A stretch of DNA of 64,000 nt from Bryum argenteum (taxonomy: Eukaryota > Streptophyta > Bryopsida > Bryales > Bryaceae), in contig CM073328.1 in assembly GCA_037043015.1 (NCBI GenBank), forward strand, positions 17,333,495 to 17,397,494. The letters run 5' to 3'. The notes below the pieces were generated by a model that saw only the letters and a list, made by a program, of their open reading frames with translations, did not search any database and had not been told where the DNA came from. Below are positions 554-59,916 of this stretch, piece by piece. The number at the start of each line of letters is the position of its first letter. Position 1 is the first letter of the stretch. A program made the translations under genes and the position numbers.

Positions 554-578
554 ACTTCAAGCATCTCTGTAACAGGGG

Positions 579-1788: not shown

Positions 1789-1919
1789 ACACTTGTTCCA
1801 AGTCTTCTTGACGTCCCAGACACCCACGGAAGCGCACACTTACACTCATGCCCATTTGTGATGAGAAACCGAACGCATTTAAGATGCTTTGAATCTGCCG
1901 TTTTATAGCATCAATGGGC

Positions 1920-3249: not shown

Positions 3250-3273
3250 AATCCATCTTGGACGTGCATCAAG

Positions 3274-8440: not shown

Positions 8441-8454
8441 CACCACGCCGTTCA

Positions 8455-8580
8455 GTCCTACGGTGGTTAAGGTGTGAGACGTTTGTAGTCGTGCTGGTCC
8501 ACGTTCGAACCCCAACGGACTCGTTTGAGCAGTACGCAACCACTAGCGTCTTACCCAGAAGCTGAGACTCAAGCACTTCG
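8455..8580 (+). repeat. Possible tRNA-derived SINE-like fragment
   Basis: The stretch GGTGGTTAAGGTGTGAGAC (8462-8480) resembles a pol III A box. ACGTTCGAACCCC (8501-8513) resembles a B box, about 40 bp downstream, which is the usual spacing for tRNA-derived SINEs. The sequence does not fold into a full cloverleaf that I can draw, so it is not called a tRNA gene. No poly(A) tail or target duplication was found. Confidence 0.3.
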
Positions 8581-8977
8581 TTGATACTATTTTCTAATTA
8601 GTCCATAATTAGTTAGATATTCCTTAAATTGGCTCTACCTTTGTAGAGTAGACATCTTTATACGGAACTAAAAGAATCAGACCTCATGTTTGAGTGCAAC
8701 TTGATACATGAAGTCAATCTTCAGAAACACATTCTGGTAGAACAATACATGAAAAACATAAGTATTAGGCTCACACCTAGAATAAAGAGGATAGGAAGTC
8801 TACTACAAAAACGTATTGTCATATTTCCATCTCACTATCAGCCCACGGTAACCTTTAAACTCATGTGGAAGTACCTTGAACTTTTACATTAAATTTTATT
8901 GCACCAATCAATGTATTATCAACTTCATCTTCTGCAATGTCATTGGAAAGAGTAGCTTTTGTACACTTTAAATGGTC

Positions 8978-9086
8978 ATATTCGTTACATTGAGACAATA
9001 TGTGCACTATATATTGAACATGTTGAACCTTTTTTCTTTATCCCCGGATCGAATATGACTCCAAATCATCTCAATGTAACGAATAT
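8978..9086. mobile_element. Small foldback MITE with perfect 18-bp inverted repeats
   Basis: An 18-bp arm at 8978-8995 (ATATTCGTTACATTGAGA) is repeated perfectly in inverse orientation at 9069-9086. Weaker complementarity continues outward for about 12 bp. The loop is about 73 bp. No protein is encoded. The size and structure fit a non-autonomous foldback element. No clear target-site duplication is visible. Confidence 0.55.
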
Positions 9087-9105
9087 CGCCTTTTAAGTTA
9101 TTTCC

Positions 9106-11361: not shown

Positions 11362-11696
11362 TATGGTAGAGCAGCCAAAAATGGCGCAGTGCCGAAAATG
11401 GAGCCCTAGTAATCTTCACTGTCACGTACATAATAGCTTCTCCTTACAATAGTACCATGTACACTCTGCAAAGATTGTAGGGCGTCACTTTAGGGCACCA
11501 TTTTAGGAACACCTATATTTCCATCTTTAAAGATTCATTACTCACTGTAGAAGAGTCGAAAAATGATGATTCCACTTGCTCTAGTTTTCTACTAATTTTC
11601 CCCATGCACCAAAATTGCGTGCACTCGCAACATTCCAGTAGATTTTCTGTGCTGAAAATTGCGCCATTATAGGACACCTTACCATAATGTCCAATT
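11362..11696. mobile_element. MITE family 1, copy 1
   Basis: This 335-bp element is nearly identical to 31374-31698. The ends form imperfect inverted repeats of about 27 bp, TATGGTA...AATGGCGCA on the left and the complement on the right. If TA is the target duplication, the termini are TGGTA...TACCA, which suggests a Tc1/mariner-type parent. It has no coding capacity. It lies just downstream of peptide gene copy A. Confidence 0.75.
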
Positions 11697-11939
11697 ATAC
11701 ATGAAAATATTCGTACGCACCTGTCAGAGGCCCCAGCGGAAAAAGGGTTAATACTGGTGGAGGAAGAATTATAAGCTGCCTACTCCCTTCACATTGTGCC
11801 GACCGTGAAGGTGATTTCTTCTTAGTTTGATTTATGCATTGTTTCATGGAATCTTTGAACTGGCCTGTTGCTAGGGCTATATCCGCGCTTGAATCTTTAC
11901 ATGTGCTCACACTCGTGCATGTTCTTAATTGATGGTCAC

Positions 11940-12106
11940 TCAATGAATGAGTGGACGCTTCGATGGAGGCCTCCACTTCGACGAGCTCCCGTCACCCAGG
12001 GGAGATTTCGATGGAGGTTTCCCTTGGAGGACCCACCGTCGCCCATAGGGGCCGACTGCTTCGGCGGTCTCCACTTTGATGATCCTCCGTCGCCCATCAC
12101 TCCCAT
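11940..12106 (-). pseudogene. Repeat-peptide gene, copy A (frameshifted)
   Basis: Subfamily 1 copy. The ATG at 12106 opens MGVMGDGGSSKWRPPKQS and the second unit begins normally, but one base is missing after its Lys codon (AAG then GGA instead of AAG TGG AGA). The frame therefore leaves the third unit, which is still readable in another frame at about 11960-12000, and ends at 11940. The TATA-like TATAAAT lies at about 12321-12327, about 215 bp upstream of the ATG. An upstream in-frame ATG at 12190 exists but is not shared by other copies. Confidence 0.7.
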
Positions 12107-12318
12107 TGTACTTTGCGAAGCTGTGGAGGATGATCGAGAACCGAGTGGTTGCAGGTCCGTTGCAGGTCCGTCGACCTTCCTGGTCACCAATCTCGAAGTG
12201 GACTAGGTCCGAGTGATATTGAGTTATCAAGATCACTTGCTGCAGCAAGCGCCTTGTGTCTGTGCTGATCACTGCGGTGAAATGGAATGATTGTTGTGAT
12301 AGAATCAAAGTCTGGTGC

Positions 12319-12330
12319 TAATTTATACTC
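12319..12330 (-). promoter_or_regulatory. TATA box of copy A
   Basis: On the minus strand the sequence reads GAGTATAAATTAG. The same position and context (TATAAAT followed within 10 bp by CAGA(C/G/A)TTTCATT) occurs in copies B, D, G and H. Confidence 0.6.
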
Positions 12331-14955
12331 TGAAGTTGAGGTCGTGGCATTCGAACCGTGCTCGTAAGTCGCGGACCTGAATGATGATAGTCCAACGCAC
12401 TGCCGCGCTTTGAGATCCAGATGTCTCATGAATGGCAGCGAGAGGCGACTAGAGGTGATGAAATAGGAACGACTGTCGTGTTGAGCGGCGCCTGCGAGCT
12501 ATTGAGAGTCAAGCCGATGTTTCAGAATGCTGTCAACGACGACTAAAATTTCCCGCCCGGTCGGTAGTTGGAGGAGTTTGTACGAGTAGTAAGTTGGAAT
12601 CTTGCGCTCAAGAATGATTGAAGGATGAGAAAGTTTCATGGAATGTGAGTTGGGGCAGTTACAAGGGTGTAGGAAGAGAATGTTATATTTCGTGAGAATA
12701 TGAATAATCCATGAGTATTGGGCAGTCACTAGTAAGTACTGGGTCCATATGGTCAAACACAAGTACAGAAGCTAGCTATGAAGTACGGACCTGGCTTCCA
12801 TAAATGTTTCTTGCGTATATTCAGGTTCTAGTGAAGGAGTAAGCTGCCACATGTATTCTGGATTCTGGCGAAGGAGTTTACCTTCCGTGGCGCAGTATCA
12901 GACTTTTTTTCAATCACAAACGAATTGTGTTGAAATTCCAAATGTCTGTTTCAAACGCGAAAATCTCAACCTAACAGCCGTGGTCCAGCTAAAGGTATGT
13001 CTACTCTTTCAGTGCTGCCAGTGGAAAATTGTATTTCATACTTTCTCTCTCGTCACAAACGAACGGTGTTGGAATTCCAGACGGAAAATCTCAACCGAAT
13101 TGCCATAGTCCAGCTGAAGGTACTTTCGGTAGAAATTCCTGCTCATTCAGTGCCGCCAGTGGAATTTAATTCTATTCCACACTTTCTGGAGTGAACCGAA
13201 GTATTTCGAGGAGGATCCTAATTCGTCATCTTCGACGTCAGCCATGGCAAGGTATAAGTTCGAGAAGGAGGCAGCTAGACCTGCCGAGGCACGTGATGTC
13301 GGCAACAACCAGACAGGCCCAAAAAATTCTGCTTCTTTGTATCTGAGGCGGTTGATGATAGTTTTGAGGAATTACTGGCCACAGCAGGTGTGGCAAGTCT
13401 CCGCAGGCAATTCTGTGTTTGCAAAGAATTTGACCAGGCATTCAACTTCGAGTAGTTATGGACCAATGATTCTCACACTTTCGGACGATCATTCACATTT
13501 GTCTTACCTTGGAGCGGGAGAAATTTCAGTACAGTGGAAGTTTCAATAGTACGGCATTCCGAGCTGGTATGAATCATTCGACGACGGCGCCATGTGTCTT
13601 GTGTTGTCCTGAGTGTCCTCGTCGGCACCAGTGTGGACCTCGAAGTCGATCATCCTCCACGAACACATTTCTACCCTTTGGTTGAAAGTTGGGGATTTTT
13701 GACTGCCATAAGTTTGTTTCTAGTATTTGAGATCCAAAGTGAAATTAATTAAGCTCAGTAACTTGTTGTGTTTTGGTAAGTATTTATACGTTGTGACCTT
13801 GAGTTTATGCAACCTCATGATTTATAAGATTCGATTCACATCATTTATGATAAGTTTAGTACATGATTGTGTGAGTAAGAATTTCATATGCCCTATGCCT
13901 GGAAACCCAAAAACAAGAGTTTTTCACTATCATGCACGCCATCAATCTATACTTAATTGTCCGGGTTTGTTACTTTTACCACACAAACTAGACTAAATTT
14001 GGGACCTTTGCCAAGTGATTTCATTCAACAAAAACATAGAATGAAAAATTTATGGCTCTTCATAGTTGTTGCCTTCCATCCAAAATGTTGTTTTTCTACA
14101 TTCGGTGCATTTAGGGGTTAAATTCCCATACCGAATCTCAACCATTCAACCACTTCACCTTGTCATACGCTACACATTCAACTACTTCACCTTGTCATGA
14201 TGTACATATTTAGAGAAGTTTTAGACGTTGCCTTACTCATTTCATACTTTCGATTCCATCATCTTTTCTTCTTCACTTCTTTGCAACTGTGTTATATAAT
14301 TGCAATATTCTGCATTCTTGACTATGCCATTTTGTGACATATTTGCAAATTTACCAAACAAAGGTCAATACGTATACCAAATTCTAACAACTAGAAAAAT
14401 TAAAATTCCAATTCCGTTAAAAGGACAATATTTTGGACAATAGCACACCTCAACTTGACACTATTTTGGACAATGGCACACCTCAACTTTTTGAGATAAT
14501 GAAAAAAAGAATAATTTTGGAATGTAATTTCATTAATAATTATGTACAAAAGACTCCAAACAAGGTAGGGGAGAGTGCTAAAATAGGAGTGGTGACAATA
14601 ATGGAGCAATAGCCTTCTTGACGAGAGGTACATACTAGCTTCTTTACTCAAATAGTAGCATTTACTCACGGCAAACATTGTAGGGTGCAAAAATAGGGCA
14701 CCATTTTAGAAACACCTATGAGACCGCCTTCAAAAATCCATAGCAGATTGTACTAGAAGAGTTCAAAAACCATGAATCCACTTTGAAAGTGAGTCCACAT
14801 ATACTGTAATTCTAGAGTCCACATCCATGTATGAAAATCTGGATTAGTCCACTGAAGACTCAAGTTGAAGATTGGTAGACAACTTGAGAAGTCACGGACT
14901 GCCTCCTAAGTTGGAACAGAGGCTATAGTAGAGTCCATGATACGTAGTTGCCATG
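12331..14955. other. Upstream flank of copy A and host spacer
   Basis: About 12340-13450 matches the upstream flanks of the other subfamily-1 copies (for example 33000-34070 and 55500-55990), including a G-box-type CACGTG at 13290-13295. No credible gene is seen. 14425-14485 holds two tandem copies of a phrase ending GGCACACCTCAACTT. 14640-14780 is a diverged relic of MITE family 1. 14881-14955 matches 53160-53231 and forms the left host flank of the 15-kb insertion. Confidence 0.6.
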
Positions 14956-14988
14956 CATTAGAGAAAATTTGGGGTGTGAGGAAGGCCA
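14956..14988 (+). repeat. Left terminal inverted repeat of the 15-kb element
   Basis: These 33 bp match the complement of 30039-30071 at 32 positions; the only difference is G versus A at TIR position 23. Host sequence GTTGCCATG precedes it. Confidence 0.85.
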
Positions 14989-15589
14989 GTATTTTTGGCT
15001 CGAAAATCAATAAATTTTTTTCGATAAATGCTGAAATTACATATAAATGGTACTGACCCGAGTTCACATCAAAACTGCCCGCCAATGGGGAAGAAGCGGC
15101 ATGGCCTTGGTGGCAACGTAGTGGGCCTAGTTGACCACCGGATTGAAGGATGTGGTAGTTAAGAAGGACCGGAATTCATGAGTGGCGGCCGAGGTGGCAA
15201 CGGCCGTGCTTGCCGCACGAGTACCGGCACAATGAATGCTCAATAAAATAACGATGCTTTAAACTATTTTATGCCCACCTCGTAGTACCACAACAATGTA
15301 AATGTAAACGTGAAAAAGGTTTTACTCGTTGGAAAACGGAATCCACTACCTTAAATCAACGTCTGCGGCGTTGTAGAGGGTGATGGGGAAGTCCTTTTGG
15401 GTTGACTTCACATTCCACGTGGACATGCCAATTATAATTGTGCACAAGTAGAATAGCTTCCCGCCAAATGAGTTGGCTACATTCATGTTGCTCCTAGTTT
15501 GCATGGCATAATGTTGAGCGAGTGCGAGTCAAATGCTCTCCGCCAAATGAGTTGGCCTCTTTCGTGTTTCCACCAAGTGAGTTGGTTTC

Positions 15590-15955
15590 GTTGTGGCTTA
15601 GGGATATCATGGCACTTCTGCATGTTTCCAACAGAGGTCAAGGAGTTTAGAGTAGAGTTGAGCGTAGTTTTGCTCCACATTTATGCATTAGCTTTAGTCA
15701 CATGTATTGCCTAGACTTGCTCATGTGAACAGGAAAGGTGTTCGAAGTTAGCTTAGTGGTACTACGAACAGTCATAGCAACTCTGGATGTTTCCAACAGG
15801 GGTCAAGCCGTCAAGGTTGTCAGTCTTGTTTTATAGCTTCAGGTCTTGAGCGGTGATTTACTTATGCGGTGAAAACAGAGTTCGAAGTGAGTGTAGTTGT
15901 GGCCTAGGGACGCTTATGGCACTTCTGGATGTAACCAATAGAGATCAAGGTAGTA
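15590..15955 (+). repeat. Triplicated ~150-165 bp exon-like unit
   Basis: Three head-to-tail copies share the phrase GGCACTTCTG(C/G)ATGTTTCCAAC or a decayed form, followed by AGAGGTCAAG, at about 15611, 15776 and 15914. The first two keep the element word GTTTCCAAC. The third has GTAACCAAT instead, and only the third leads into a long open frame. This looks like local duplication of a 5' exon with its acceptor site. Confidence 0.6.
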
Positions 15956-17050
15956 AGTCCTATTCAGTAGCTTTAGCTCTAGAGCGTAGATTTGCTCCTG
16001 TGGTGAGGAAAGGAGTTGGAATTGACGAACAAGTGCCGAAATCACAATTTCCAGCCTTGAGAGATTCTGGAGCCACCAACATTGACCTGTGGGTGGATGG
16101 TAATTTGTATCCATCACATCCACACACTAGAAAGCCACCTGAGTTTCATAGTGTGAAGTCACTTCTAGAATTTGTATGTCACGGAGAATCTGGCCTATTA
16201 GGATATGCTAAGAAACTTGTTAATACAAATGATGTTGTGAAGGGCTTGGAGTGTGAATTGAGGAAAACACGCGCCTCTATTGCACTCTTGAGGCATGATG
16301 TTGATGTTGCTAATGAAAGGTGTACCCTACGTTCGGAGGAACTTCTTGGAAGTAGTAGAGAAGAGATTGCAACATTGAAGAGTGAATCTGACGTTTTGAG
16401 ATTTCGATGTTCTTCGCTAGAGCAAGAATTAAAGAATAGCACAGAATCTCATGCGGTTAGCCTTGCGATGAGCATTCGATGAGGGACGACAAGCTGCAGA
16501 TGAAGAGTTGGTTAGACTAAATCAGGATCTTGAAGTAGCGAAGAAGGCGTTACTCAAGCTTCAGAGGAAGTTAGAGAGGATAGTGAACACTCCAGTAGGT
16601 ATGCAAGTTAGAGCATCAAGGGTCTCATCGATTTAGCGAAGTGTGGAGGCGCGACCAAAGCGCGTATTGCAAGGATCCGAAGCTTGTTACAACCGGGTCA
16701 TTGTTCAATCTGTGCATGTTGGAAACAAGACGTCGAATGGGAGGAAACGCTTGTGTGGTGGCAAGGATACACAAGATGAGACCGGGCAAGCACTTGGACG
16801 ATTACTATCACAAGGAGAGACATGGGCATTCTTTGTCCCGAACCGCGAAAGCTTTTTCTTGCCACTAGCATGACAAACTACTACCTCAACAGAATTGGGG
16901 AAGAATTGGGAACGTAAGGTATATTGGCGGCATGTGATATGACCGGAGTATCTCGAAGGGATATGGTGAGATTTACAAAACAATCAAGGGCGAGCGAGTG
17001 CGACTTGTTGACAAGCGCTTGAAGCCAACATTTTTACCAAACCCGCACAA
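15853..17050 (+). CDS. 5' coding tract of the element's plus-strand gene (coiled coil)
   Basis: An open frame from 15853 to 16482 encodes about 209 residues. The first half is of mixed composition. The second half (about 16215-16440) is rich in Leu, Glu, Lys and Arg with heptad spacing and is predicted coiled coil. The sense then shifts by one frame near 16470 and continues helical to a stop near 16635. It resumes in the ORF 16643-16873, and further readable sense lies at about 16870-17050 before a possible GT donor after CCCGCACAAG. It may be the N-terminal part of the transposase gene or a separate protein. The shifts mean it is decayed or has introns I have not placed. Two GTTTCCAAC motifs lie close by. 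Confidence 0.4.
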
Positions 17051-17158
17051 GGTATCGATGAATCCACCCCATTTTATGATTCTTCTTACATTGTCTTCAA
17101 AATCGATATTATTTACGATGAGTTGAAAACAAACTTCAAGTAGATCTACTTTGCCAAC

Positions 17159-17422
17159 ATGCTAACATATGTCTTCTATCAGGTAAGTTTGTTGCGACGA
17201 GAGCTGAATTCAAAGTTGATGGATCTTGTTGGTGACTACTACTACATCGAAAGTACATTGGAGATTCAATCAAATGCTCCAATGACAAGTACAAAAGAGA
17301 AGAAGAGGAAAGTAGAGATAAGTCGGGTTGTCTTGACAGCAAAGAATTCTTTGTTTGTTGATATTGAACACGTGCAAAGGACTATGGTGAAGTTGTACGG
17401 TTTTACCACGGAAGGTAATTAA
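17159..17422 (+). CDS. Internal exon upstream of the transposase core
   Basis: An open segment of about 80 residues follows a pyrimidine-containing acceptor near 17180 and ends with a probable donor after GGAAG at about 17415 (GTAATT). It contains DYYYIESTLEI and a basic patch KEKKRKVEISR. It lies between the coiled-coil tract and the catalytic core on the same strand. It probably belongs to the same transcript, as the region before the first catalytic Asp in DDE enzymes. No family motif was recognised. Confidence 0.4.
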   Translation: MLTYVFYQVSLLRRELNSKLMDLVGDYYYIESTLEIQSNAPMTSTKEKKRKVEISRVVLTAKNSLFVDIEHVQRTMVKLYGFTTEGN

Positions 17423-17548
17423 CTTCTACAGAAAATTCTGAGAATTTAGCGTGATAGAGTTGAATGAGATGTCTTGCAGAATGGTTAATGGGTTTGTAGA
17501 TATTAACTCCAACAATCTGTTTGAATTCACAGAAGTTGGAAACAAGCC

Positions 17549-19136
17549 GTGTTCGTGTTGAAGATGGATGAAGCGGAGATTATGCATGGAAGGAAGTTTG
17601 AAAGGGTTAGCATAACCCTCATGAATCGTGCGTTAGACACTAGCATTCAGAAAACTGACGATAGGTATTTCTCAGTCCAATCTGAAACAGAGATATGGCC
17701 TATTGCGTGCTTTGAGGTTGCGAAGGAGTCCCACGAAGTGCTTCAGTGGGTGTTCCAACAAACACAATTCCCTGCAGTGATCAAAGCACAAGATGAAGGT
17801 CAAGTACTTACAGTGGAGGGTGTTGGAACCTTCCAAGTCGAGTGGCATTTATCCGCGGACATGAAAACAATCAAATCTTTGTATGGGTTGAAACATGGAG
17901 CCAATGCCAAACATTCATGTATTTATTGCAATCAAGAGCGGACGAAACCTGTGGTGGGATCAGCTGGAAGTGTTACTTTGGAGGCTAAACGAAGGAAACA
18001 TACATGGCATGGAGGTTTATTTGCTAGTAACGTACACTGTCAACCATTGTCCATTAGCAGAGAGTTACGGTGGAAGCCTATTCTACCAATCCCACTTGAG
18101 AGAGTACATATCTGCAGTCTACATGCGTCGACGAGAATCATGGAGAAGATTCTTCATCTGCATTTCATTTTCATTTGGACTATGACAAATGAGGCCCGTC
18201 AAGAAGTTGCCATAGAGAACATGGAGAAGAGCTTGTCAGCAGCTGGACTTCATGGTGGCAACGTCCGCATTATGAAGGATCCAAAGCTAAGTGGTGTTTC
18301 CAGCAACATTCCTATCAAACCCTCCCTGAGTGGCGTGACTGCAGTCAGGATGTTCCAACCATCTACTTGGTCAGGACAAGATCGGGTTTGGAAGGATGTC
18401 CTCCGCTCAGAAAACAACACCCTCGACCAAGGTACGCAGTATTTGGACAGAGTCGAAATGTGGCAAGCGTTGGAAACAATATTGCCATATCTTGTGGGCC
18501 TTTCTTTAGATCAACAACAAATCGATACTTTTAGAGGAAAAATTAAGAAGTGGGGAGAGCTCTATGTGAAGTGCTTTGGAGAAAACCATGTCACTCATTA
18601 TATGGTGAGTTTCCACTTTTGCATACTTCTGTAATTTTTGGTTAATAAGCCTACTGCCATCTGGGCATATCTACATGTTTGAATTCTCCCACTAATTTCT
18701 CTTATTATTGGCTTTGCAGCATAACCTTGTGCGGCATGGTCCTTGGTTTGTGGAAACATACGGTAGCCTTGCTGTCTGGAACAATCAAGGCATGGAAAAG
18801 TCACATCATGCAGCAAAGGCGGCTAATCAACACCATACTCAGCATGGTGGTACTAAAGACAAAACAAGTGCTATTGTTCAGCAGTACCAGCACTGGTATA
18901 GAAATATTCAGCACAGGTTTGCTAAGCAAGAACAATTGCAAGCAACATGCAACGTCAGATCACAAGAAAATCAAGCAGCGTCGACAGCTCTAATGGAGAA
19001 GAAGAGGATAGCCTATAACGCAAGTAATGCAATGGAGGCAGCTAGAAAGTGGAGGGAAGATAGAGTACGAGTAGGTAATGCTTGGGTGAGAGAAGTTGAA
19101 CGCGAGGATGTTTCCAACACGCCTGTCATAGTCTAA
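17549..19136 (+). CDS. DDE transposase core (RAG1/Transib-like residue layout), two exons
   Basis: The frame is open from a splice acceptor before 17531 through 17549-18604. An intron at 18605-18719 (GTGAGT...TTTGCAG, phase 0) follows, and then an exon at 18720-19136 ending in TAA. Numbered from codon 17549, the likely catalytic residues are D7 in KMDEAE, D104 in HLSADMKT and E378 in NNQGMEKSHH. Probable zinc ligands are C124 and C127 (CIYC) and H353 and H358 (HNLVRH). The spacing D104 to C127 (23), H353 to H358 (5) and H358 to E378 (20) closely follows the RAG1 core as I know it. hAT, KDZ, Transib and related superfamilies share variants of this layout. The tail (18830-19130) is charged and helical. 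It would cut and join the element's ends. The only defects seen are upstream, so this part may still be intact. Confidence 0.7.
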
Positions 19137-19351
19137 GTACAAATAGTGGTGACGTTGAGCACTTTAGAATGTTCGCAACGTAGATAAGGTGCGTCCCTCA
19201 TTTCTGTATTACTCCATTGCCGCATCTTCACCGGGATTTGGGATCGCTTCCTATGTAATGATTGTCTTGTTGGCTGCATGTCATTATGCAATTGCTTACG
19301 ACTCACATTCACTATTCAATTCAAAATAACTCCAAAAAAATGTATCGCCAT

Positions 19352-19990
19352 TCAAATGATCTCACCTAGTTTTTCGGCGGCTACATCCTGCAACCTTGTC
19401 ATCATGTTGGAAACGTCCTTCTCCATCCAGGAAGTAAGAGGGTATCCAAATTGGGCCATCCAAGCACCACTGAACTTATCTTCGCAACGTGGGCAACCGT
19501 ATTTTTGATCCGCCAACAGTTGGGCAATGCATACGGGGTGGTACTCACACCCGCAAGAAGCAATAATCACAGCATGCGCTACAAAACCTTGTTTTTTGCA
19601 GCCCGCACACAACTTTGGTTGTGTTCTCCATATAGCAGGGACGGACGTACCTGTTGGATACATGAATGGAGCCCTCGGACGGAGCACGAAGGAAGGAGTT
19701 TTGAGCCTACGTACCTTCTCCTCAGATTCCACAACAGCAGCGTTGCACATTTCTAAAGTGCGTTTTGACAGTGCCAACGACCCCCCTTCAATAGATTTTA
19801 TTGAAGCTTTCGCGTGCTCTTCAGCCTCCGACATTGTGATTAATTTCTCCAATGTCTGTCGTTCCTGCAACAGCTTGTGCATAGACAACGCGCTCGCGCT
19901 CGTGCCTTCGCAACTTGGAGAAATAGGGTTAGAATGTATCCCTGAGGCATACCGGACCTCCAATTCTTCTCGGTCTTTAGCACAAGTTTG
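19352..19990 (-). CDS. C-terminal exon of finger gene 1: coiled coil plus C4HC3 zinc finger
   Basis: From the ATG at 19963 the frame encodes 203 residues and is open upstream to about 19990. Residues 25-90 are helical and charged. The zinc-binding array is C119-x2-C122-x14-C137-x-C139-x2-H142-x2-C145-x11-C157-x2-C160, the C4HC3 order of PHD and RING-variant fingers, followed by a conserved-looking W/FG tail. The same finger with almost the same spacing occurs at 25411-25533 on the other strand. It ends 216 bp from the end of the transposase, tail to tail. The role is unknown; such fingers bind histone tails or act as ubiquitin ligases. One GTTTCCAAC lies in the coding sequence near 19405. Confidence 0.6.
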   Translation of the reverse strand, partial: QTCAKDREELEVRYASGIHSNPISPSCEGTSASALSMHKLLQERQTLEKLITMSEAEEHAKASIKSIEGGSLALSKRTLEMCNAAVVESEEKVRRLKTPSFVLRPRAPFMYPTGTSVPAIWRTQPKLCAGCKKQGFVAHAVIIASCGCEYHPVCIAQLLADQKYGCPRCEDKFSGAWMAQFGYPLTSWMEKDVSNMMTRLQDVAAEKLGEII

Positions 19991-20089
19991 AGGTCAAATC
20001 CCGGTGTCCCGGTTTCTAACTCACAAGTGGGCCGTGGAGATGGGTGCACACAAGACAATCCTTCCAAGCAATGGACAATAACATTCATA

Positions 20090-22314
20090 CAAGCATAAAA
20101 TTCCTACTTTGAATTCAACATAGAAGTACCATCATTCAATCAACCCTCAATTTAATCCCTATAAATTGCAATTCCATGAGTGACTCAAGCCCCAAAACCC
20201 ATCAAAATTGATCCTAGGGAGCTACAATTGCATCCCTTGAGCCACTAGGGCCTTTGGGCTCAATTATGGGGTCAAATAGGACCTAAACTCAAGCAAAAGC
20301 CCCCAAAATGCATCAAACTAGACTACTACAGCACACCATTTAAGCTCAAAAATGGTAGATTCACTTGTAAATCTCCAATTCTTGGTTCCAAGGCAATCAA
20401 AACCTCTCCGCACGTTCATAACTCATTTCTACAATGCAAAATACACTTAAAACAAGATACTAGGGTTACCTAGGAGAAATTGGGCAGCGCTTCCGCGCTT
20501 GACCCAGTACTTCCCAAATTAAACCCTAATTTCAGCAATTGAACAAAAACTTTGAACCACAAAATACGAGTGAAATTTCGGCAGCGCTTCCGCACCGATT
20601 ACAAATTCCCGAATTTTTAACCTATTTTTTATAATTTCAGCCCGATTTTGGGCAGCGCTTCCGCACTACCCTTTACACACGGTGCACCCTAGCAATCAAT
20701 CACTCAAACAGCAAGGCAAGTACAGCACATACGTCTCCTTCCACGACAAACACAAGAACAAAACAAACACCAATTCAAATCACCACACACAATTTTTTGG
20801 CAAAGAGATCACCATTTTTTTAGATAAAACTCACAATTACTACTGGTTTTAAACCACACAATCTACTAATGCAAAGAGATGCATCAATCAAGCGAAGAGG
20901 GGATGGAGGGGCTCCCTCCTTAATGTCACCCTGTCTACCCTCCGTAATATCACGGAGGGGACAGGGGTTCCGTTGCTGCTGCGGCAGATGGGTCCGACTC
21001 TCCTCCGGTGTTTGGTCGTTGTCGTCTCCTCCGATACTGCTCGATACTGGCGAGGATGCCGGTGCTAGAAGCCGGGTCGCGGTGCCTCAATTGCCGGCTG
21101 GAACTGCCGGCTCCTCTGCTGCTGCCAAGGAGCTGCGTCGCTCCTCCGGCGATTGTCGATGCTGATTGGGGTCACTGGACCTCGTGGTCGCCGCTCCTCC
21201 GCTGACTGATCGCGGCTATCCTTCTCCGATCCACCTGCTGCCGGCTGGTTCTGTCGATGCGGCTGTTGAACTGTCGAGGAGCTGCTGGCCCTCGAGCTCG
21301 TCCCCAACCTCCGTCGAGTCGATGCCGTCTCACCGAGATTACCCTCGATCCGCCACCGTGGTGCGCTGATCGGCTCGCCGTCGTCGTGTTCGGCTGTCGG
21401 CGTTGATCGACGCTGGCTCCGGATTCGGAGCTACCCTGGTCGCCGGTACACCGGCGGTCTGGCTTCCGATCGATGTTCCAGCCCGCTGCTCGCCGAATCT
21501 GAACTCACAATCCTGAGCGCTGTCGGTGGGTGCTTCCGATCGCGGTTCCAGCTCGCTGCGTCGCCGAGTCCGCTCCGTCCAGATCGAGCGCCGTCGGTGG
21601 GGCCTTGCTCGTGCCGCCGCTCCTCCGCCCCGTCCAGATCGAGCGCTGTCGGTGCCCTCCTCGATGATGCAGGATCACCGTGCTCCGACGCCGTCACCGC
21701 CCATTCACGAGGCTGCCCCTCCGAAAGACTGCACCTGCGGCACTTTTCCGCCAGCGACCGCCGTTATCGAGGAACCTGCACACTCCTCTCCAAAACACCG
21801 CACGCACTTCCCACAACACGATTAGGGGTTTTCACCCAATCCGCTAGCTAGGACTCATGAATTTGCGACAACAACCTAGATCTCCAAAAAATCGCTTCCT
21901 AAAACACACACACACACAAAAAAACCAGCCTAACGGCCTCTCTTCCAACTCCCCTCCTCCCTGGCTGATCCAGGGAGGTTGAAGCAAAAAAGCTTCATCC
22001 GTCCAATTGGGCGGATTTCATCCGTCCAGTTGGACGGACTTTCATCCCTATTTTCTTCTAACTAATTAGGCAAGCTAAAGGCACCACCTTTCATATTAGG
22101 GGTTTTGTAGAAAGTAAGGGCGAAGTGGGGTAACCCGCGTCCTACCTATGAATACATAATTGCTAAAACATACTAAAACTCGCCATTTAATATATTGGCA
22201 ATTATCAAAAATACTAATTAGGTATAAATTAGAACAAGAACGGCCGCTTGTGCCAAAACCTCCTATGAGACCATGGGTATTCCGTGAATTCACGAAATGA
22301 GCTAAAAGGTTTAA
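20090..22314. other. Intron-like region of finger gene 1 with repeated motif and G+C-rich block
   Basis: The first part (20090-20860) is A+T-rich and has three copies of GGCAGCGCTTCCGC at about 20482, 20580 and 20650. The next part (20870-21850) is sharply G+C-rich, with Leu/Arg/Ser-rich frames open in several directions and no consistent protein. A stem-loop lies at 20929-20966 (CCCTGTC...CCCTCCGT paired with ACGGAGGG...GACAGGG). A short CA repeat lies near 21905, and a palindrome CCGTCCAGTTGGACGG at 22022-22037. The block looks like an insertion nested in the intron, but its ends are not evident. Confidence 0.45.
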
Positions 22315-23227
22315 TTAAACCATGGAAACTTGATAATTACGCGCTAAACTTCGCGGGGAACGCATTCCCGCTAAAGTGAACCGTTTCGCGGGTTCACAAC
22401 AAGTGACAAGTGCCTCCTTTGATTCCGCCAAGGACCTCAAAATACCCTCGTGCGCGGCAGTTGTTTTGTCCCTGAGTTGGCGATAATCCAACAATTCTGC
22501 TTCTGCCTCCGCAAGCGCTTTCGAATTGTGCCGTGTTGGAGAACCTGTCCTCGTCCTCTTACGCCCGGTGGTAGTCGTGTAGAAATGGCTCATAATAGCG
22601 CACAAGTGCGCAAGTTGCTCCCTGATCGCAACAGGTCCCAGTTTGTGGCGGTTATGTTTCTTTTGGCTTATTCGAGTGTTGCGCCTTTTGATCGCTTCTG
22701 ACACCCAGTCAATTTCCAGGTTGTGCACAAATGTGGCATAGCAAGCGCGTAAGAACCTCAAAGAAAATTGGTCATTGGAAATAGAGCCACCATACACGAG
22801 CTTGTGGTGTTCAAAAAATTGTTTTGCTTGGATTTTGTCAAGACACAAGCTGATTGGAAACCTGTATGGATCGGTGCCTGTCTTCCATTTCTCTCTGATC
22901 TCCTCCTCAGTGACTTGCGTTAGGTTTGCAACTTAATCCACGGGTGTTCCACGAGGGCACAATCCCGCAACAACCGTGAAGAATCGCGCATCGTAAACAC
23001 CGTGCCTTCCTTGAAGCACGGGGGGCGTGCAGTTATCAATCGCTTGTGTCTTCGTGAATTCCATCCAAAGGGGGATCGGCTCTTGAAACTCATCTTCTCC
23101 GGACGGTGTCTTCTCTACTCCGCCGTGGCTCTCAATCTCTTCGAGGCACATGCTTCGTTTCCACCTCCGGGGACTCTCTGTGATCTCCCGAATTCCTCCT
23201 GCAAGCACGAGCCGGTTGTCTGGACAT
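22315..23227 (-). pseudogene. N-terminal exon of finger gene 1
   Basis: One frame is open from 23208 to 22315 except for a single TAA at 22933-22935. It aligns by eye with the plus-strand gene at 24205-24911: GVYDARFF with AVYDEDFF, SLRFLRACYATF with SQTFLRACVYYF, and LGPVAIREQLAH with LGPPALKPQLAH. The proposed start is the ATG at 23225-23227, directly preceded on the minus strand by TGTTTCCAAC, as in the paralog. That start needs one frame shift within the first about 20 codons. The C-terminal part is charged and helical and probably splices to the finger exon about 2.3 kb downstream. The nonsense codon suggests this copy is inactive unless suppressed or miscalled. Confidence 0.55.
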
Positions 23228-24204
23228 GTTGGAAACAGATAGCGAGTACTACGTATTCAGTCTGAGGCTACTACGTATTCTACAACGTACTCTGAAAGGC
23301 TAGAAGAAAACTTAGAGAAAGAAAAAACATTGGTACCACTCCGTAGGAAGAGTTGGTACTTGTTGGTTTGAGGCGAATCATAACACTCAAGTTGATGATG
23401 TCAACTTCATCATGTAACTTGCTCAAAGCTTCTAATCCATCAGTTCGTTACAAGTGATGATTACTTTCCCTTTGGAATTACGTCAAAGCCTCACATCAGT
23501 TTATCACATATGATAATTACTTCGCAATGAGTAACTTGCAAGTCACTTGGTTGTTGCCATCAATGTTTTTTTCAACAATCCTTCAAAATCAATGAATTTG
23601 ATTCACTGATGATCCTAATCAAATACCCAAATATCTCACACGGCAAGTAATCGAGCACCTAAGTAATCGAGCACCTAAGTAATCGAGCACCCCGAGGTTC
23701 CCACGTGCAAAACTTTTAATTAAACTATGCACCATTGCAGTTTGTTTCCATCGACTGCGTCAGTGTCTCCCTCCGTTTCGATGGCCGCTTGTTTTTGCCA
23801 CCTCCGAGTCTCAGACGTCGATCGCTGCCGTGTGCCCGTGCCGCTGCCGTGTTAGTAGTTGCGGTGTTAGTGTCGTTTCCGTGTTAGTGCCGCTGCGGTG
23901 TAGAGCTTCGTTGCGGTGTAGATCTTCGTTGCAATTTGGTGTCGGTGCGACGCTTAGAGCTTCTGTAGTTTTCGGCAGCTTAGGGTTTGTTTGCGGTAGA
24001 TAGTTTCCAACACGTCGTGAGCGCTGCTGTATGTTTCCCTAAGTGTCGCTATGAGCTTGTGTTTAGGGGCGCTGTGAGCTTGTTTTTAGGGTCGCTGTGT
24101 CGCTGTGAGCTTGTGTCGCTGCGAGCTTGTGTCGCTGTGAGCTTGTCTTCCAGTTTAGGTTTATCGCTTGTGTGTGGTTTATCGAACTTGTAGCGGTTTC
24201 CAAC
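23228..24204. promoter_or_regulatory. Divergent intergenic region between the two finger genes
   Basis: The two paralogs point away from each other across about 980 bp. The region contains three tandem copies of AAGTAATCGAGCACC at about 23646-23690. Its right part (23815-24180) is rich in short GTGTTAGTGTCGCTG-like and GTCGCTGTGAGCTTG repeats, the latter at least four times. GTTTCCAAC occurs at 24003 and again at 24196, abutting the ATG of the plus-strand gene. No TATA box is convincing. Confidence 0.45.
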
Positions 24205-24911
24205 ATGGCCTCCGCCCCCACAGGCCGTAGCAGTAGGAGTCTCGTCAAAGGCAAAGCTGCTCTGAAAGAGAAGCGGGAGGAGTCTCCTAGCAAGAAAGAT
24301 AACTGGGTCATTCCGGTTCCCAAACAGTTGTCATGGGAGGAGCCCTTCGATTTAGAGGGGTTTCCTCCTCTCCTTACTGAGAAACTTCTTGAGTCGGCAC
24401 CGTGCTTGTTAGGAAGAGAGAATGCTGTTTACGATGAGGACTTTTTTCATCGCATTTGTGGGCTGTGCAAAGAAGGAGTCTTGCCGAAAGATGTGACCGA
24501 CGCCATGGTCCCAGTAAGTGTGTATGAGCGCTGGTGGGAGAGAGGGACGGGTGTCAACAAGTCGAGGTACTTCTTGGAGAAGTGCACGAAGGAGATGCAC
24601 AAGATCGCGTATGTGAAGATGTACCAGCGTGTTTACAACGAGCCTCCTGACAACAAAGCCTTCAGCCAGACCTTCTTACGGGCGTGCGTGTACTACTTCA
24701 ACTTCGATGGAAAGGGTGGCAAGAATCCGGTGAATTGGGCGGACAAGTCAAAAAGGTGATCACCGATCGAGATGCCCATGCGAAGAACAATCCCCTGTTG
24801 GGCCCTCCCGCATTGAAGCCGCAACTTGCACACATCATCATCGACGATCGTCTTGACTACTTGAAGGAGTCCTTAAACCGGGGATGTTGGAAAAAAGGCC
24901 GACTGTGGTGA
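24205..24911 (+). CDS. Finger gene 2, N-terminal domain
   Basis: The ATG at 24205 is chosen because it opens the longest frame and sits next to GTTTCCAAC, as in the divergent paralog. The frame runs 185 codons to 24759. It has a basic start, then a domain with RENAVYDEDFFHRICGLC and FSQTFLRACVYYFNFDGK. At about 24750 homology with finger gene 1 continues in the next frame (LLGPPALKPQLAHIIID) to 24911, so one base has been gained or lost, or a tiny intron is present. I do not recognise the domain; its reuse in two genes of one element argues for a real role, perhaps with the transposase. Confidence 0.6.
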
Positions 24912-25233
24912 GGAGAAGGGCAAGCGTGAAGTTGAAGGAGTTGCGGAAGGCAATATCCATCATGATCGTGGGCTCGCTCAAAATCACTTGAGATGAAGTG
25001 GCTCAAAGAAGGATGCACTATCAAAGTTGGAGGTGAGAAGGTGGAGATTGAAGCCGAAGATGAGAATCTAAACTCCAAGAAGGACGAATGCGCGCAAAGC
25101 TTCTAAGGACTTTCTCAAAGTCGGAAACATGGAGGAGAAAGCGCGTGTCGACAAGGAGCAACGACAAGTCAGTAGCGAAGATTGCGAAAACAACAACGAA
25201 AAATGGAGGAATGTGAGGACTGATTGATGGGAC

Positions 25234-25581
25234 ACGAAGACCATAGCCCAGGAAGAAGAGAAGCTGCGTGGTCTCAGAGAGGCGCTAAGTCAGCTACAGA
25301 AGAAATGCGTAGCCGAGAAAGCAGCTCAGTATTCTATCAAGCCCAAAAATCCTGCTGGAAATAGGATAGCAACTGAAGGACGGGCGCCAAACCTTAACAC
25401 AACCACACCATGCGGACTCTGCAATCTCCTGTTTGTTTCCAACAGCATAGTACCATTATCGTGTGGTTGTTTATTTCACCTCTGGTGTTTGTGGCCAGAA
25501 CTCATTTCAGGAGTTCGTGATTGTCCGCCGTGTGTTGGTCGTCGATGCTTTGGTTGGATTCTTGGGGGTTTGGTTTCTTAG
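25234..25581 (+). CDS. Finger gene 2, C4HC3 zinc-finger exon
   Basis: This frame has no internal ATG in position and is open from about 25234 to TAG at 25579-25581. A helical Lys/Gln/Ala-rich lead-in is followed by C-x2-C-x13-C-x-C-x2-H-x2-C-x11-C-x2-C at 25411-25533. The ligand order and near-identical spacing match the finger at 19352-19990. Both fingers have SCGC at ligands three and four. The GTTTCCAAC at 25435 falls inside the coding sequence as VSN. The segment 24912-25233 upstream contains frame breaks, so the copy may be partly decayed or contain introns. The stop itself could be the end of an intron (TTTCTTAG). Confidence 0.6.
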   Translation, partial: TKTIAQEEEKLRGLREALSQLQKKCVAEKAAQYSIKPKNPAGNRIATEGRAPNLNTTTPCGLCNLLFVSNSIVPLSCGCLFHLWCLWPELISGVRDCPPCVGRRCFGWILGGLVS

Positions 25582-27799
25582 AAATTCCCGACGGTAACCC
25601 TAAACCCGATGACAAGGCCCCGGCCCAGGTAGGAGAGCCGGTCATGGAGCGCAAGAAAGCGCCTACTGAACAAGCTTCCAGAAAGAGTGAAGCAGCCTCT
25701 AAAAAGCCGAAGCGAAACAAGACGCAAAACAGACTCCGTCGCCTAAAGCTGGTAAGGCAAATTCAACCACGTGTTTTCAATGTTGGCCCATACCAGTGCA
25801 CATGTACGTGTTCTAGAGCACGTGGTTGAATTTGCGCGATGTTGTAACCGTCATGTTGGATGTGCGATGTTGGAAACAGACGCTAAATCGATGGAGGACA
25901 AGAAGAAGGGAGAGCATACCAAGGGGTCTAAAGGTGACAACAAGACCGGCTCAAAGAAAGACAAAGTCACATCCAACGTCGTCAAAGGGGCGCAAGGCGG
26001 CGACGTTCCTTTGAAAGACAAGGTGGTAAGACAAATTCAACCACGTGTTTTACTTGACTATTTCATTGCTTGGCGGTACACATGCACATGTGTAGAGCGA
26101 GTGGTGCTTGATGCGCGATGTTGTAACCGTCCTGTTGGATGTGCGATGTTGGAAACAGAAGCTAAACCAGTGGAGGACAAGAAGAAGGGAGAGCATACGA
26201 CGGGACCTAAAGATGACAAAGAAGACCGGCTCAAAGAAAGGCAAAGTCACATCCAAATATCATCAAAGGGGGCGCAAGGCGTCCAAGTCATCCAATCTAG
26301 TAGTACTTGACGACGACGTTCTTTTGAAAGACAAGCAATTTAGGATAAAGAAGAGGCCAGCTCCTACCGTAGCTGAGGGTGAACCACCTGCTAAGGTGCT
26401 GAAGCAACATAGCACTGTATTGCCTATGGCCGGTAAGGAAACTTACACTCGTTTAATTAAGCCATGTCATTTGTTTTCCCATGGTAGTGCACATGTGTGA
26501 AGGACATGTTCCGTACTGTGTACGTTAACGCAAACTTGTTCTTGTGCAGGATGTGGTATGTTGGAAACAGAAGCTAGAGCGGTGGAGGACAAGAAGAAGG
26601 GAGAGCGTAGGAAGGGGCATGAAGATGACACCGCGACCAATTTGACGGCCAAGAAGAAGGTAGAACGTACATCTGACAGTCCTTCCCTAGTTGGCTCACC
26701 ATCATGTGACAGTGGGTCGTTAGAAAAGGTGAATTCCGTGATTGAACAAGTGTGCTCAAGCGCAGATTCCTGAGAGCTTAAGTATATTACACTGTGTCGT
26801 TTAGCCGCGCCGGACAAGGTGGAAGCAATGTTAGAATTTATGATTTTGACTTACATATTTTGTCAATGCCAAACATTTGGGTGTGGAATGAAAAATCCTT
26901 ATTTACACATTGACCTTGTTTTCGTAACCGTTGGAAACATCACAACAGAGCAAAGATGATGGAGAAAGTGAAGCTGAACCACCTACAAAAGCAGCCTCGC
27001 CAAAGCCACAGGTGACAAATAAAGATCTTCTTGGAAACCAGCCAGCATGTCATTTTACACCAATGAGATTCCCCGTTAAACCGCGTTCATCAATTCAACA
27101 CCCAGAGAAACGGGCACCACCAGTGAAACGGGCAGGTAAAAAATCAACCACTATATCGGCGGTTTTTAACGCACAACTAGCATACACAGAAGCTGTCCGC
27201 CAGGCAAATCAATACTTGTACGATAAAACAACCATATTCAATTTCGATTAACTTTTAACTTTCAAATAAAGAGGGATGAATTGCTCAAGCATGCAACATG
27301 CTCTTGTCCATGTGTTTGTTGGAATGCTACTCTGTCTCTAAACGGATGATATCTTAGTCATGCTAGTTGTGTTCTGTTCGATGAGGCAGCACACAGAAGC
27401 GATGATGTTTCCAACAGGTCTCGTTTCTCCTTCAGACCTCCACCAGATGCTTTTGAGCCACCATTGTTTATAGACGTTAAACCGCTGAGGTACTTGCCAC
27501 CTCCTAAAGACATAGTCGACCTTGATTCCGAACCGTGTTCGCGTATATGGAAGCCTGCAAGGGAGCCTGTAAGGGAGCATGAATGGGAGGAGAACTCTGA
27601 ATCACCGAAGGGAATAGTGTCTCGATTGACCAACAGCTCTCAAGCAGCATCCTCGAGCAGCAGCTATGAGACATCTGCAGCGACATCGAAGTCTGCTCAA
27701 GTACTGGGAGATGAGCTACTCGGTTCTCCAGAAAGTTCGCAAACTTCATCAGACTTCCTATCCTTCATCGAGAAAGGCTGTTTTCCACCTACTGCTTAG
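25582..27799 (+). CDS. Lys-rich tail exons downstream of finger gene 2
   Basis: After a possible acceptor at 25581 the frame reads a basic, Pro/Lys-rich segment (KKPKRNKTQNRLRRLK) to a GTAAGG donor near 25752. Lys-rich exons follow at about 25880-26026, 26159-26434 and 26571-26773, each preceded by TGTTGGAAACAG. Next come 26931-27251 (Pro/Lys/Ala-rich, ends NFD) and 27417-27799, whose frame includes FRPPPDAFEPPLFIDV and a Ser-rich end. These may be the C-terminal part of finger gene 2 or a separate Lys-rich protein. Splicing could not be resolved. No enzymatic domain is seen. Confidence 0.4.
25752..26580 (+). repeat. Triplicated intron-plus-exon unit
   Basis: Two close copies (starting 25752 and about 26027, period 275 bp) and a diverged third (from 26435) each contain a GTAAG donor, an intron and the acceptor-like TGTTGGAAACAG. 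Each then has an exon starting with a GTGGAGGACAAGAAGAAGG-like sequence encoding Lys-rich peptide. The first two introns share ATTCAACCACGTGTTTT. This is exon duplication within the gene. Confidence 0.65.
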
Positions 27800-28233
27800 G
27801 CGAAGATTGCAAATTTTATCTACAAGTTGAAAGCGCCTTAAGTTTAGAGTTGGCCAACCAGACATGTTTTACCCAGAAACATGTGTAGGAAAAAAAGAAA
27901 CATTTTTTCCTTGTTTAGATACCTGTTGGAAACATCACGTTGTAAACTCAAAACATTTATTCTACCACATATTCTAAGACCACCCTTCAATGCAAAATGC
28001 TCACAACAAAGAAGTAGTTGTTGCCACCGGATTTGTGCAGCGCTACAAAAAAAGGCATCGTTTTATAAATACCAAAAGTCCACCTTTTCGGTGATCCCTA
28101 TCACGATTTAAGGTCATTGGCCACATATATGTATAAGTCCGTCCGACCGCCTTCGTACACGTGCACTTGCATCAACAATACTAATACGATCTAATTTCCG
28201 ATAAGTCACTCTTCCTAGCAAGCAATATTTCAC

Positions 28234-29781
28234 CTAGCTAGTAACTCCTACTATTTCGAATGCCCAGGGAGGAAGGACTCTTGCTACGGGATGGACATTC
28301 TCGTGTGCTGCGATTGATGTTGACAACCGCACGCCGGGTTTCCGAGTGAATCGAAAATCCATTGGAACAATATCCCCCAACGTAATGCGGACCTCTCGAC
28401 GAATATGTGACAACGGCCATGTTTTCCCCACTTCAAACGTCGCCACATCATCACCTCCAAACAAACAAGGAAGAAGCACCAAATCCTCCTCTTGAACTTG
28501 GTCAATCATTGCCAACTTACACCATCTTGCCCTAGACGCTCTCTCCCATACTTTAAATTTGCGTACAACGTCGATCGCCCCCATGGTACTGCGTTGCGCA
28601 CAACAAACCGCGTTTAGGGTTTTAATCTCCAAATCGGTTTTCCTTGACAACCCGCTCCTCCTCCTCTCAAGCTTGATGATTAGATTTTACCGGCATTAGC
28701 AACCTCGTGCCTGAAGGTAACAGTGTGCATCAATATCGTGCACCTCACGATATCTTTGCCAAATACAATTTTTTGATGCCAACCCGGATCCATGAGGCTC
28801 AAAAATAGTTCATCAGATGGATTTTTAACGATATACAAGGTGGCTGTGCGCCTCATGTTTGCCTCCTCAGGTGCAAACAAATCGACAAAGACATGCAATG
28901 GTAAAAACCACTGCAAATGCCCCATTCGGCTTCCAGGTGGTGGGCTTTGTAACGACACGAAAATCTTGGCGCAACTTAAAGCGAACGCGCTTACGGGTGT
29001 GCGTGTCGGGGAGGGGCCACTCGAGTCGGTGAACGCCGGCAAAAGGAGTGGCTCAACTGATCCATAGAGCAGGCCTGGTGTAGGCGGAACATACACAAGA
29101 TTAGAGTAAAAAATTCCATTGTCGAGAAGCTCGCTGTAAGATCTGCCATTGCGAGTGGCTTCCCCGATGTCGCTGTGGAGAACCACAATGGGTCCGTATA
29201 GAATCGGGGTCTACCTATCCTCGAAAAATGATCAAACAAAATCTGTTTCCAACACGGAGCACATCACACAAATTAGTATAAAAAACACGTTCGGAGCGTT
29301 ACAGAAAACAATTTTCCTAACGGTGAATCACAATTGCAATGCACGAGTTCTTACAGTTGCATGGAACCCTTTCGTGTGGAATTTCAGGATCCAAGAGCAC
29401 TTGATGCCGCTGGTATGCGTGCCTAACCAACACAGACTCCATGGCAACCTTGTTGCCAACATGCTTCACCTTGAAGTCCACAATTTGGGCTTTGTAGGAC
29501 CCTCTCATGCTCTCACGTCCATACTTGCGAGCCTCTCTTGCCCATGTTCCATTTCTCCCTGGATTCAGCCTCACCCATGACAACCTCTCATAACGCGTTG
29601 GTATCCACTCTCCGGCCTCATTGTGAGTGTTAAACAGCGTAACGGCACTGATCTCGTTCTGTGGTCGCCGATTCTCCATAGTGACTAACACGACAAAAAA
29701 CACTGACAAGGAAAATTGGCTGCAAGAAGAAATATGCAAGCCTATTATTCCCGCCATTACTTTGAAATTGGCCGTCACCAT
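28234..29781 (-). pseudogene. Decayed fourth gene of the 15-kb element
   Basis: Three protein-like frames follow each other on the minus strand: 29781-29317, 29186-28680 and 28650-28234. The first has PTRYERLSWVRLNPGRNGTW and KVKHVGNKVAMES. The second has many Pro and hydrophobic residues (NLVYVPPTPGLLYGS), and the third resembles the end of a globular domain. Frame changes separate them, so the gene is decayed or has unplaced introns. I do not recognise the family. It lies between the Lys-rich exons and the right TIR. Confidence 0.35.
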
Positions 29782-30038
29782 CCGCCACTAAACCACGGTA
29801 TGCACAACATGTCATTCTCATTTGGCATCATGAGGCATACAACCGATGGTGCCGCACCAAGGACGGTGCTCTCACTCGTGCTAGCAGTACCTCCACTGGG
29901 TACGCGAATTTTATATACTTTTCACTCATTTTGCTTTGATTGGTCAACACTTGCGCAAGATATGATGTTGGCACTTTGTGTGACAAGGTGGAGGGCCTGT
30001 TTTTTGAATTAAAGTCGACGTTAATTGAAAAAGGAAGT

Positions 30039-30071
30039 TGGCCTTCCTTACACCCCAAATTTTCTCTAATG
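30039..30071 (-). repeat. Right terminal inverted repeat of the 15-kb element
   Basis: This is the complement of 14956-14988 with one mismatch. Host sequence GAAAGTTCC follows and is collinear with 53231 onward. Confidence 0.85.
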
Positions 30072-31373: not shown

Positions 31374-31698
31374 TATGGTAGAGCAGCCAAAAATGGCGCA
31401 GTGCCGAAAATGGAGCCCTAGTAATCTTCACTGTCACGTACATAATAGCTTCTCCTTACAATAGTACCATGTACACTCTGCAAAGATTATAGGGCGTCAC
31501 TTTAGGGCACCATTTTAGGAACACCTATATTTCCATCTTTAAAAATTCATTACTCACTGTAGAAGAGTCGAAAAATGATGATTCCACTTGCTCTAGTTTT
31601 CTACTAATTTTCCCCATGCACAAAAATTGCGTGCACTGGCAACATTCCAGTAGATTTTCTGTGCCGAAAATTGCGCCATTATAGGACACCTTACCATA
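31374..31698. mobile_element. MITE family 1, copy 2
   Basis: This copy is nearly identical to 11362-11696 apart from a few substitutions and small gaps, so the family moved recently. It abuts the 3' flank of peptide unit B. The termini are TATGGTAG...TTACCATA. Confidence 0.75.
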
Positions 31699-53159: not shown

Positions 53160-53720
53160 TACTTGGAGAAGTGACCGCCTCCCGAGGTGGAACAGCAGCT
53201 ATTGTACAGTGTGTGATGCGGGGTTGCCACGAAAGATCCAGCCAGGAGAATTCGAGAGTGAGGAGCTCGGTCTACTTGGAATCAGACAAAAGGTTGGTCA
53301 ATATGGCGGCATGTATGCAGAGAATCAGCAATGATTGGCTTCCCAGGTGACCACTTTCCTTCTATATCTATTTCTGAAATCTTTTTTGAAACACTGAATA
53401 TATATAATATTGGGATGGTCCATTTTCTTTTTGTGGTTTCGAGGTGAACGAAAGTGTGTTCAGTCTTGGCTTAATTTTTATTTTGTCCAGAACAGTGTAT
53501 GCAATCGCAATTCCTCATCGGATTGCTCAGAACTACCTCTAATTATTTCGGAAAAAAAAAAAAAAAAACTCCAAACCGCCTTCTTGGGATCCGCCTGCCC
53601 ACACTACTTGCCACCATGTCCACTCATGTAGAATCTTGCCTTTGACATGCCAAAGAATGTATTGAACAGTTGCTCATGAATTACTTAGGCAGGGGCCACC
53701 CTCACAATATTGAATGGTTC
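53160..53720. repeat. Host spacer repeat: empty site of the 15-kb element
   Basis: 53160-53231 corresponds to 14881-14955 and 53231-53690 to the DNA right of 30071. The segment shows what the insertion site looked like before the 15-kb element arrived. The MITE at 30408-30630 is also absent here. A run of about 16 A lies near 53555. Confidence 0.75.
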
Positions 53721-59716: not shown

Positions 59717-59770
<54 letters not shown>

Positions 59771-59912: not shown

Positions 59913-59916
59913 TATC

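Follow-up and report, generated by a model that had tools for sequence, protein, structure and literature searches.

Positions 14956-30071 of a 64,000-nucleotide stretch of the Bryum argenteum genome (GCA_037043015.1, contig CM073328.1, positions 17,333,495 to 17,397,494; hereafter the window) constitute a DNA transposon bounded by 33-bp terminal inverted repeats (TIRs) with a single mismatch. An earlier note on this DNA, made from the letters alone, had described these repeats at 14956-14988 and 30039-30071, together with a transposase gene, a divergent pair of related finger genes and a further gene; alignment bore out the repeats, and the analysis supported the overall layout. The features of the element and of its internal empty site are as follows, where ORF denotes an open reading frame.

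14956..30071, + strand: complete window copy of the element, with the nested 2,411-bp insertion counted in its 15,116 bp; TIR-bounded, 11 family copies compared
14956..14988, + strand: left TIR, CATTAGAGAAAATTTGGGGTGTGAGG...; 32-bp core identical at seven left ends
15853..16482, + strand: N-terminal coiled-coil part of the transposase, shorter here; the ORFs (stop to stop) have 334 and 338 residues in copies c8_71 and c10_112
17549..18604, + strand: catalytic exon of the transposase, with KMDE (first D), LSADMK (second D), CIYC and HICSLHA; the ORF continues to 18634, into the intron
18720..19136, + strand: C-terminal exon of the transposase, with HNLVRH and GMEKSH (H-x4-H and the third acidic residue)
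19352..23248, - strand: finger gene 1, split by the nested insertion, with a C-terminal RING-like finger; extent from copy alignment, upper end approximate
19988..22398, no strand: nested insertion, 2,411 bp, adjoining ACAAG repeats; missing from four unnested copies, including c3_283
24127..25829, + strand: finger gene 2, a relative of gene 1 in divergent orientation; approximate extent
28234..29781, - strand: further ORFs near the right end, a possible third gene; only a sub-threshold Pfam match
30039..30071, - strand: right TIR (TGTAAGG variant), inverted repeat of the left TIR with one mismatch
53161..53408, + strand: paralogous empty site of the window insertion; joined flanks align at 72% (189/262) across the junction

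Copies and families in the genome

A search of the 258,844,377 bases of the genome with the 32-bp TIR core (up to 3 mismatches) gave 24 matches, 12 on each strand, while a reversed control gave none on either. The left 201 bp of the element matched 30 times and the right 300 bp 26 times, so the window element belongs to a repeat family. The earlier note had tied its reading to the existence of other TIR-bounded copies and to flank homology that breaks at the TIRs, and both were found.

Eleven copies of the window's family were compared, ten of which have both TIRs and all of which have different flanks. The four copies that carry no large insertion measure 12,652, 12,701, 12,707 and 12,713 bp (12,707 bp is nominal, as the left TIR of that copy is lost), and the window copy aligns to them in two blocks, positions 1-5032 and 7444-15116 of the element. 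The 15.1 kb that had been taken as the length of the element is therefore inflated by the nested 2.4 kb and is not the size of the family, whose unnested copies are about 12.7 kb long. The nested insertion has a G+C content of 50%, compared with 46%, and no clear coding content. The remaining copies consist of one deleted copy (8,175 bp), two short ones (2,744 and 708 bp) and three that are interrupted by other DNA (20.4, 30.6 and 39.7 kb). Nine copies, compared in pairs, have substitution identities of 96.8-98.2%, as after a single burst; the short copies c1_210 and c2_2589, whose identity to the window copy reaches only 75-87%, are not part of this comparison. Minority bases between copies are distributed about equally over the three codon positions in five regions, so decay of the copies is neutral. 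No convincing subterminal direct repeats were found in the one copy examined.

In total, 20 TIR-bounded copies, amounting to 0.145% of the genome, fall into five families named by TIR sequence. They share the termini CATTAG..CTAATG, with CATTAG at 19/20 left ends and CTAATG at 18/20 right ends, the other two right ends being one base off. Family 2 has the ends CATTAGAAATAA and CATTAGAAGAAT, and its TIR pairs lie 18.6 kb (C1:10608591-10627204), 30.5 kb (C2:2200987-2231491), 31.5 kb (C10:6738417-6769919), 42.6 kb (C1:40628564-40671171) and 47.5 kb (C3:10872113-10919572) apart, with three to seven finger-gene matches each; these pairs are either very large elements or heavily nested ones. Families 3-5 comprise TIR pairs 12.2, 11.6 and 10.9 kb apart, as well as a short 1.6-kb copy.

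Insertion without target site duplication

The internal empty site that the earlier note had placed near 53 kb is real: the host DNA on either side of the element aligns across the junction, which reads CCATG|GAAAG in the joined flanks and CCAC-GAAAG, one base fewer, in the paralogue. The left flank (14656-14785) also resembles, at 72-77%, three further stretches of the window (11453-11577, 31465-31589 and 62267-62388), so this host spacer is repeated within the window. ORFs of a Copia-type retrotransposon, with integrase and reverse transcriptase parts recognised by eye, adjoin the paralogous spacer at 56337-61398.

Joined flanks of other copies were then used as genome queries, which provided empty sites for nine further insertions from three TIR families (six from family 1, two from family 2 and one from family 3). 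At all nine, the paralogous empty site joins the two flanks seamlessly, with a duplication of 0 bp. For example, the joined flanks of c2_2587 (...CTACCAAG|GAGGATGG...) and of f2_C1_106 (...AAATGTAG|CTTTATTT...) read the same as their empty sites. Mismatches occur at the joint of c1_210 and c4_192, with the length unchanged, and at c9_28 a T run a few bases off the junction differs in length by a single T. The host DNA around this copy is itself repetitive, with at least 46 matching stretches (L067-L072 and 40 more) that provide a source of empty sites; six of the 46 listed were fetched, as were 1/8, 1/2 and 1/6 for the sites of families 2 and 3, where 40 of 574 candidates were scored.

The flanking bases of the 20 TIR pairs give the same picture, with no base alike on both sides in 12 copies, one in seven and four in one. 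This count leaves out a pair of ends 110 kb apart (C1:5353675/5464450), single ends such as C1:28257849 and C1:31015120, and the weak matches L024, L025 and L041-L047. There is a weak preference for T at the second position outward, at 23/39 ends (uncorrected p 5.5e-4; the left end of c3_283, whose TIR is lost, was excluded) and on both sides at 6/19 sites. The missing target site duplication (TSD) that had been remarked on at the window insertion is a true 0-bp insertion and is general, as the nine further sites show.

The transposase

The full-length relatives P0045 and P0048 provided the layout by which the N-terminal part was assigned to the transposase, and the end of the catalytic exon was set by a GT-AG splice in copy c9_28, in which the intron before the C-terminal exon was read. 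Many relatives diverge in reading immediately behind the same THYM residues, a sign that the intron may be old. P0045 and P0048 have no intron. In P0048 the key residues are D411, D508, C528, C531, H761, H766 and E785. Across 50 aligned relatives, the first D is conserved in 43 (with six gaps), the second in all 50, and the two cysteines in 47 and 48, respectively. The stretch with H-x4-H and E rests on a few sequences (the window-family copy, P0045 and P0048), as most other gene calls end at the intron before it.

Pfam analysis of the spliced 527-aa transposase returned no family at E<=5, and therefore none of Transposase_21 (PF02992), DUF1258 and DUF1280, Pfam names given for transposases of the CMCT clade (PMC3985635); any link to Transposase_21 would have to be remote. 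No transposase domain appeared in Pfam scans of nine window ORFs, the spliced transposase, and sets of five and of 18 relatives, the last among the 25 of 43 weak families listed. The window transposase exon had no match in the PDB or in phage records, and no relative was confirmed among three pattern matches in viral contigs and 21 in a prokaryote genome collection. Public sequence sets hold dozens of relatives, without a Pfam label, and these include fern proteins (Adiantum). Four annotated Adiantum nelumboides proteins, P0085-P0088, combine pieces of the transposase with unrelated domains and are probably gene-model chimaeras.

Finger genes and other reading frames

In unnested copies the finger ORFs (stop to stop) encode 492 aa (gene 1; c9_28 and c3_283) and 460 aa (gene 2). 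The two proteins are 22% identical over 391 residues (E 1e-21) and both end, as read by eye, in a RING-like C-x2-C...C-x-C-x2-H-x2-C...C-x2-C pattern, so the related, divergent pair proposed earlier is genuine; Pfam RING matches were sub-threshold and limited to the first protein. A genome search with the 492-aa protein, in which 87 of 174 candidates were scored, gave at least 92 matching stretches, 55 of them inside the 20 TIR-bounded elements. At least one finger-gene match was found in 16/20 elements, the four without being the short or deleted copies c8_96, c1_210, c2_2589 and f3_C2_1612, while all eight elements above 10 kb in families 2-5 hold one to seven matches at 24-43% identity. Outside the elements, 17 of 37 matches lie within 20 kb of a transposase stretch (45 of 73 such stretches were listed for this count). 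RING-like helper genes are present in elements of all five TIR families and so belong to the whole group, not just to the window's family. Their conservation points to a probable accessory role for the RING-type proteins, in DNA binding or in assembly.

Elsewhere in the window, a 199-aa ORF at 44510-45109 features a C-x-C...C-x-H pattern, which we take to be a SWIM-like motif.

Relationship to RAG1 and the CMCT clade

For a close relative of the window transposase, the predicted core fold is of the type of RAG1, an enzyme of the immune system, and the catalytic and zinc-binding residues of RAG1 are all represented. The CMCT clade has been characterised by its C(2)C and H(3-4)H motifs, by CA..TG ends in most lineages and by TSDs of 2-5 bp (PMC12730594). 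The B. argenteum transposase is a DDE enzyme with both motifs between the second D and E, and the elements have the 5'-CA..TG-3' termini; the duplication departs from this range, at 0 bp. Its predicted fold and motifs put the transposase next to RAG1/Transib and to the CMCT clade. The earlier suggestion of a new or little-described family is therefore upheld in part: the lack of any Pfam match agrees with it, whereas the fold and motifs put the transposase next to known enzymes, with a little-described proposed superfamily, Lanisha, possibly being the same group.

Judged by sequence alone, support for kinship with RAG1 is weak, with a phmmer E-value of 0.42 against RAG1/Transib. Several further results count against our placement of the transposase. 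The structure model is of a relative's protein and not of the window protein, its Foldseek TM-scores are low (0.31 by query and 0.42 by target) and residues 780-825, which include the third acidic residue, have pLDDT values below 50. Alignment to RAG1 with hhalign gave probabilities of 1.3-1.8% (E 0.028-0.042), and 2 of 128 column-shuffled controls reached a higher score. In addition, a profile of 50 relatives had no PDB match, one of 18 relatives matched only a coiled coil and a ribosome factor in the PDB, and P0048 alone did not find RAG1. The wider interpretation also faces objections. The loose 20-bp TIR pattern that revealed families 2-5 gave 67 matches against 20 for its control, so unpaired ends from this pattern may be chance. 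The copies carry broken frames and transposition itself was never observed, the c2_2587 empty site has only about 28 bp in common with the left flank, and c10_112 has ATAG on both sides (1/20), with no empty site found.

Proposed explanation and alternatives

Taking these points together, we consider it likely that the window element is a decayed copy of a DNA transposon of about 12.7 kb from a multi-family group with a RAG1/Transib/CACTA (CMCT)-type transposase, which falls outside the range of this clade by its 0-bp insertion. In the proposed mechanism, the transposase would pair the two TIRs and cut exactly at CATTAG, as the exact ends of the element indicate. Both ends would then be joined to directly opposed phosphates of the target, a concerted strand transfer with zero stagger, so that no gap would be filled and no duplication would arise.

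An exact blunt excision like that at V(D)J signal ends, followed by end-joining capture at chance double-strand breaks, would likewise leave no duplication, in agreement with the nine empty-site comparisons, and the ends produced by RAG1-type enzymes are precise. Joints made by end joining, however, typically lose or gain bases, whereas eight of the nine sites are free of indels within 24-25 bp on each side and the ninth shows the 1-bp T-run difference. These seamless joints favour concerted zero-stagger strand transfer, as does the weak target preference, and we regard capture by end joining as improbable. Decay of duplications that were once present is, in our judgement, very improbable indeed. 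The copies are not young, as their pairwise identities show, but a change of about 1.3% per copy, as estimated from these, would leave a 5-bp duplication intact in most copies, and the empty sites hold the flanking bases once, which refutes decay at nine sites.

A drifted but ordinary CACTA/EnSpm element would account for the large size, the accessory protein genes and the CATTAGAGAAAA ends, which resemble CACTACAAGAAAA; the TIR start, like the size and the accessory genes, recalls CACTA. CACTA, Chapaev, Mirage and Plavaka are absent from the structure listing, and we know of no solved structures of their transposases; as the PDB entries listed include no CACTA transposase, the fold search does not speak against this origin. 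What does is the lack of any Pfam match, Transposase_21 included, at E<=5 and of a constant 3-bp TSD, and we give such an origin a small chance.

A different question, over name and not mechanism, is whether the element belongs to the proposed superfamily Lanisha (Repbase Reports 2020), which we think slightly favoured; the window would then add copies and possibly the first proof of 0-bp insertion. A genome of 258.8 Mb holding a transposase with fern relatives would fit a land plant such as a moss. The Lanisha authors, Maumus, McDaniel and Carey, reportedly work on a moss. Lanisha is described as a proposed cut-and-paste superfamily whose transposase is EnSpm-like and has the C(2)C and H(3-4)H motifs, and CMCT lineages, Lanisha included, are said to generate TSDs of 2 to 5 bp (PMC12730594), compared with 0 here. 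The motifs are common to both by description; Lanisha may be the same group, and a new superfamily is unproven. That the group is a superfamily distinct from all named ones, with a RAG1-fold transposase, strand transfer to opposed phosphates, seamless insertion and conserved RING-type helpers replacing RAG2, is a tentative proposal that we hold to be rather unlikely; if true, excision could restore the target exactly.

Comparison with known transposons

The 0-bp insertion appears to be new: no description of a TSD-less RAG1-type transposon was found in the searched literature, which was mostly without subscription journals and apparently without Repbase Reports. Plants were already known to have RAG1-type proteins, since 39 Transib-like proteins have been reported there (PMC9435367). 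Transib, ProtoRAG and RAG1 differ from the B. argenteum elements in their 5-bp TSDs, as given for RAGL and Transib elements in one study (PMC7204232) and for a RAGL element in another (PMC9435367). The ends here are CATTAG, and there is no Pfam or significant sequence match to these systems. The RAG heptamer, CACAGTG, is unlike these ends. Where RAGL transposons have RAG2L, RING-type genes stand in its place; none of the ORFs stood out as a RAG2-like kelch protein, although no structure-based test for one was made.

CACTA/EnSpm, Mirage, Chapaev, Plavaka and ESTA have the C(2)C and H(3-4)H motifs and CA..TG ends in common with the group, but TSDs of 2-5 bp instead of 0. CACTA elements are also large; neither their 3-bp TSD nor their CACTA ends occur here, where insertion is at 0 bp and the ends are CATTAG.

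Nearly all elements of this kind duplicate a few target bases on insertion. TSD length reflects the spacing of the target joints made by the two active sites and is regarded as characteristic of a transposase superfamily and stable within it. Large elements without a TSD easily escape annotation that demands one, so plants may hold more members of the group than have been counted. The one TSD-less precedent that came to light belongs to another superfamily: Spy, of the PHIS group, described as inserting in AAATTT without a TSD by means of a PIF/Harbinger-type transposase (PMC4482050) and as part of a group with no or short TSDs (PMC10045372). Neither Spy nor the B. argenteum elements make a TSD, but AAA|TTT flanks occur at 0/20 copies here and the predicted fold is RAG1-like. 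If a RAG1-type enzyme makes 0-bp insertions, a single fold can accommodate strand-transfer geometries that include a blunt joint, and the B. argenteum group would be a second case, unrelated to Spy.
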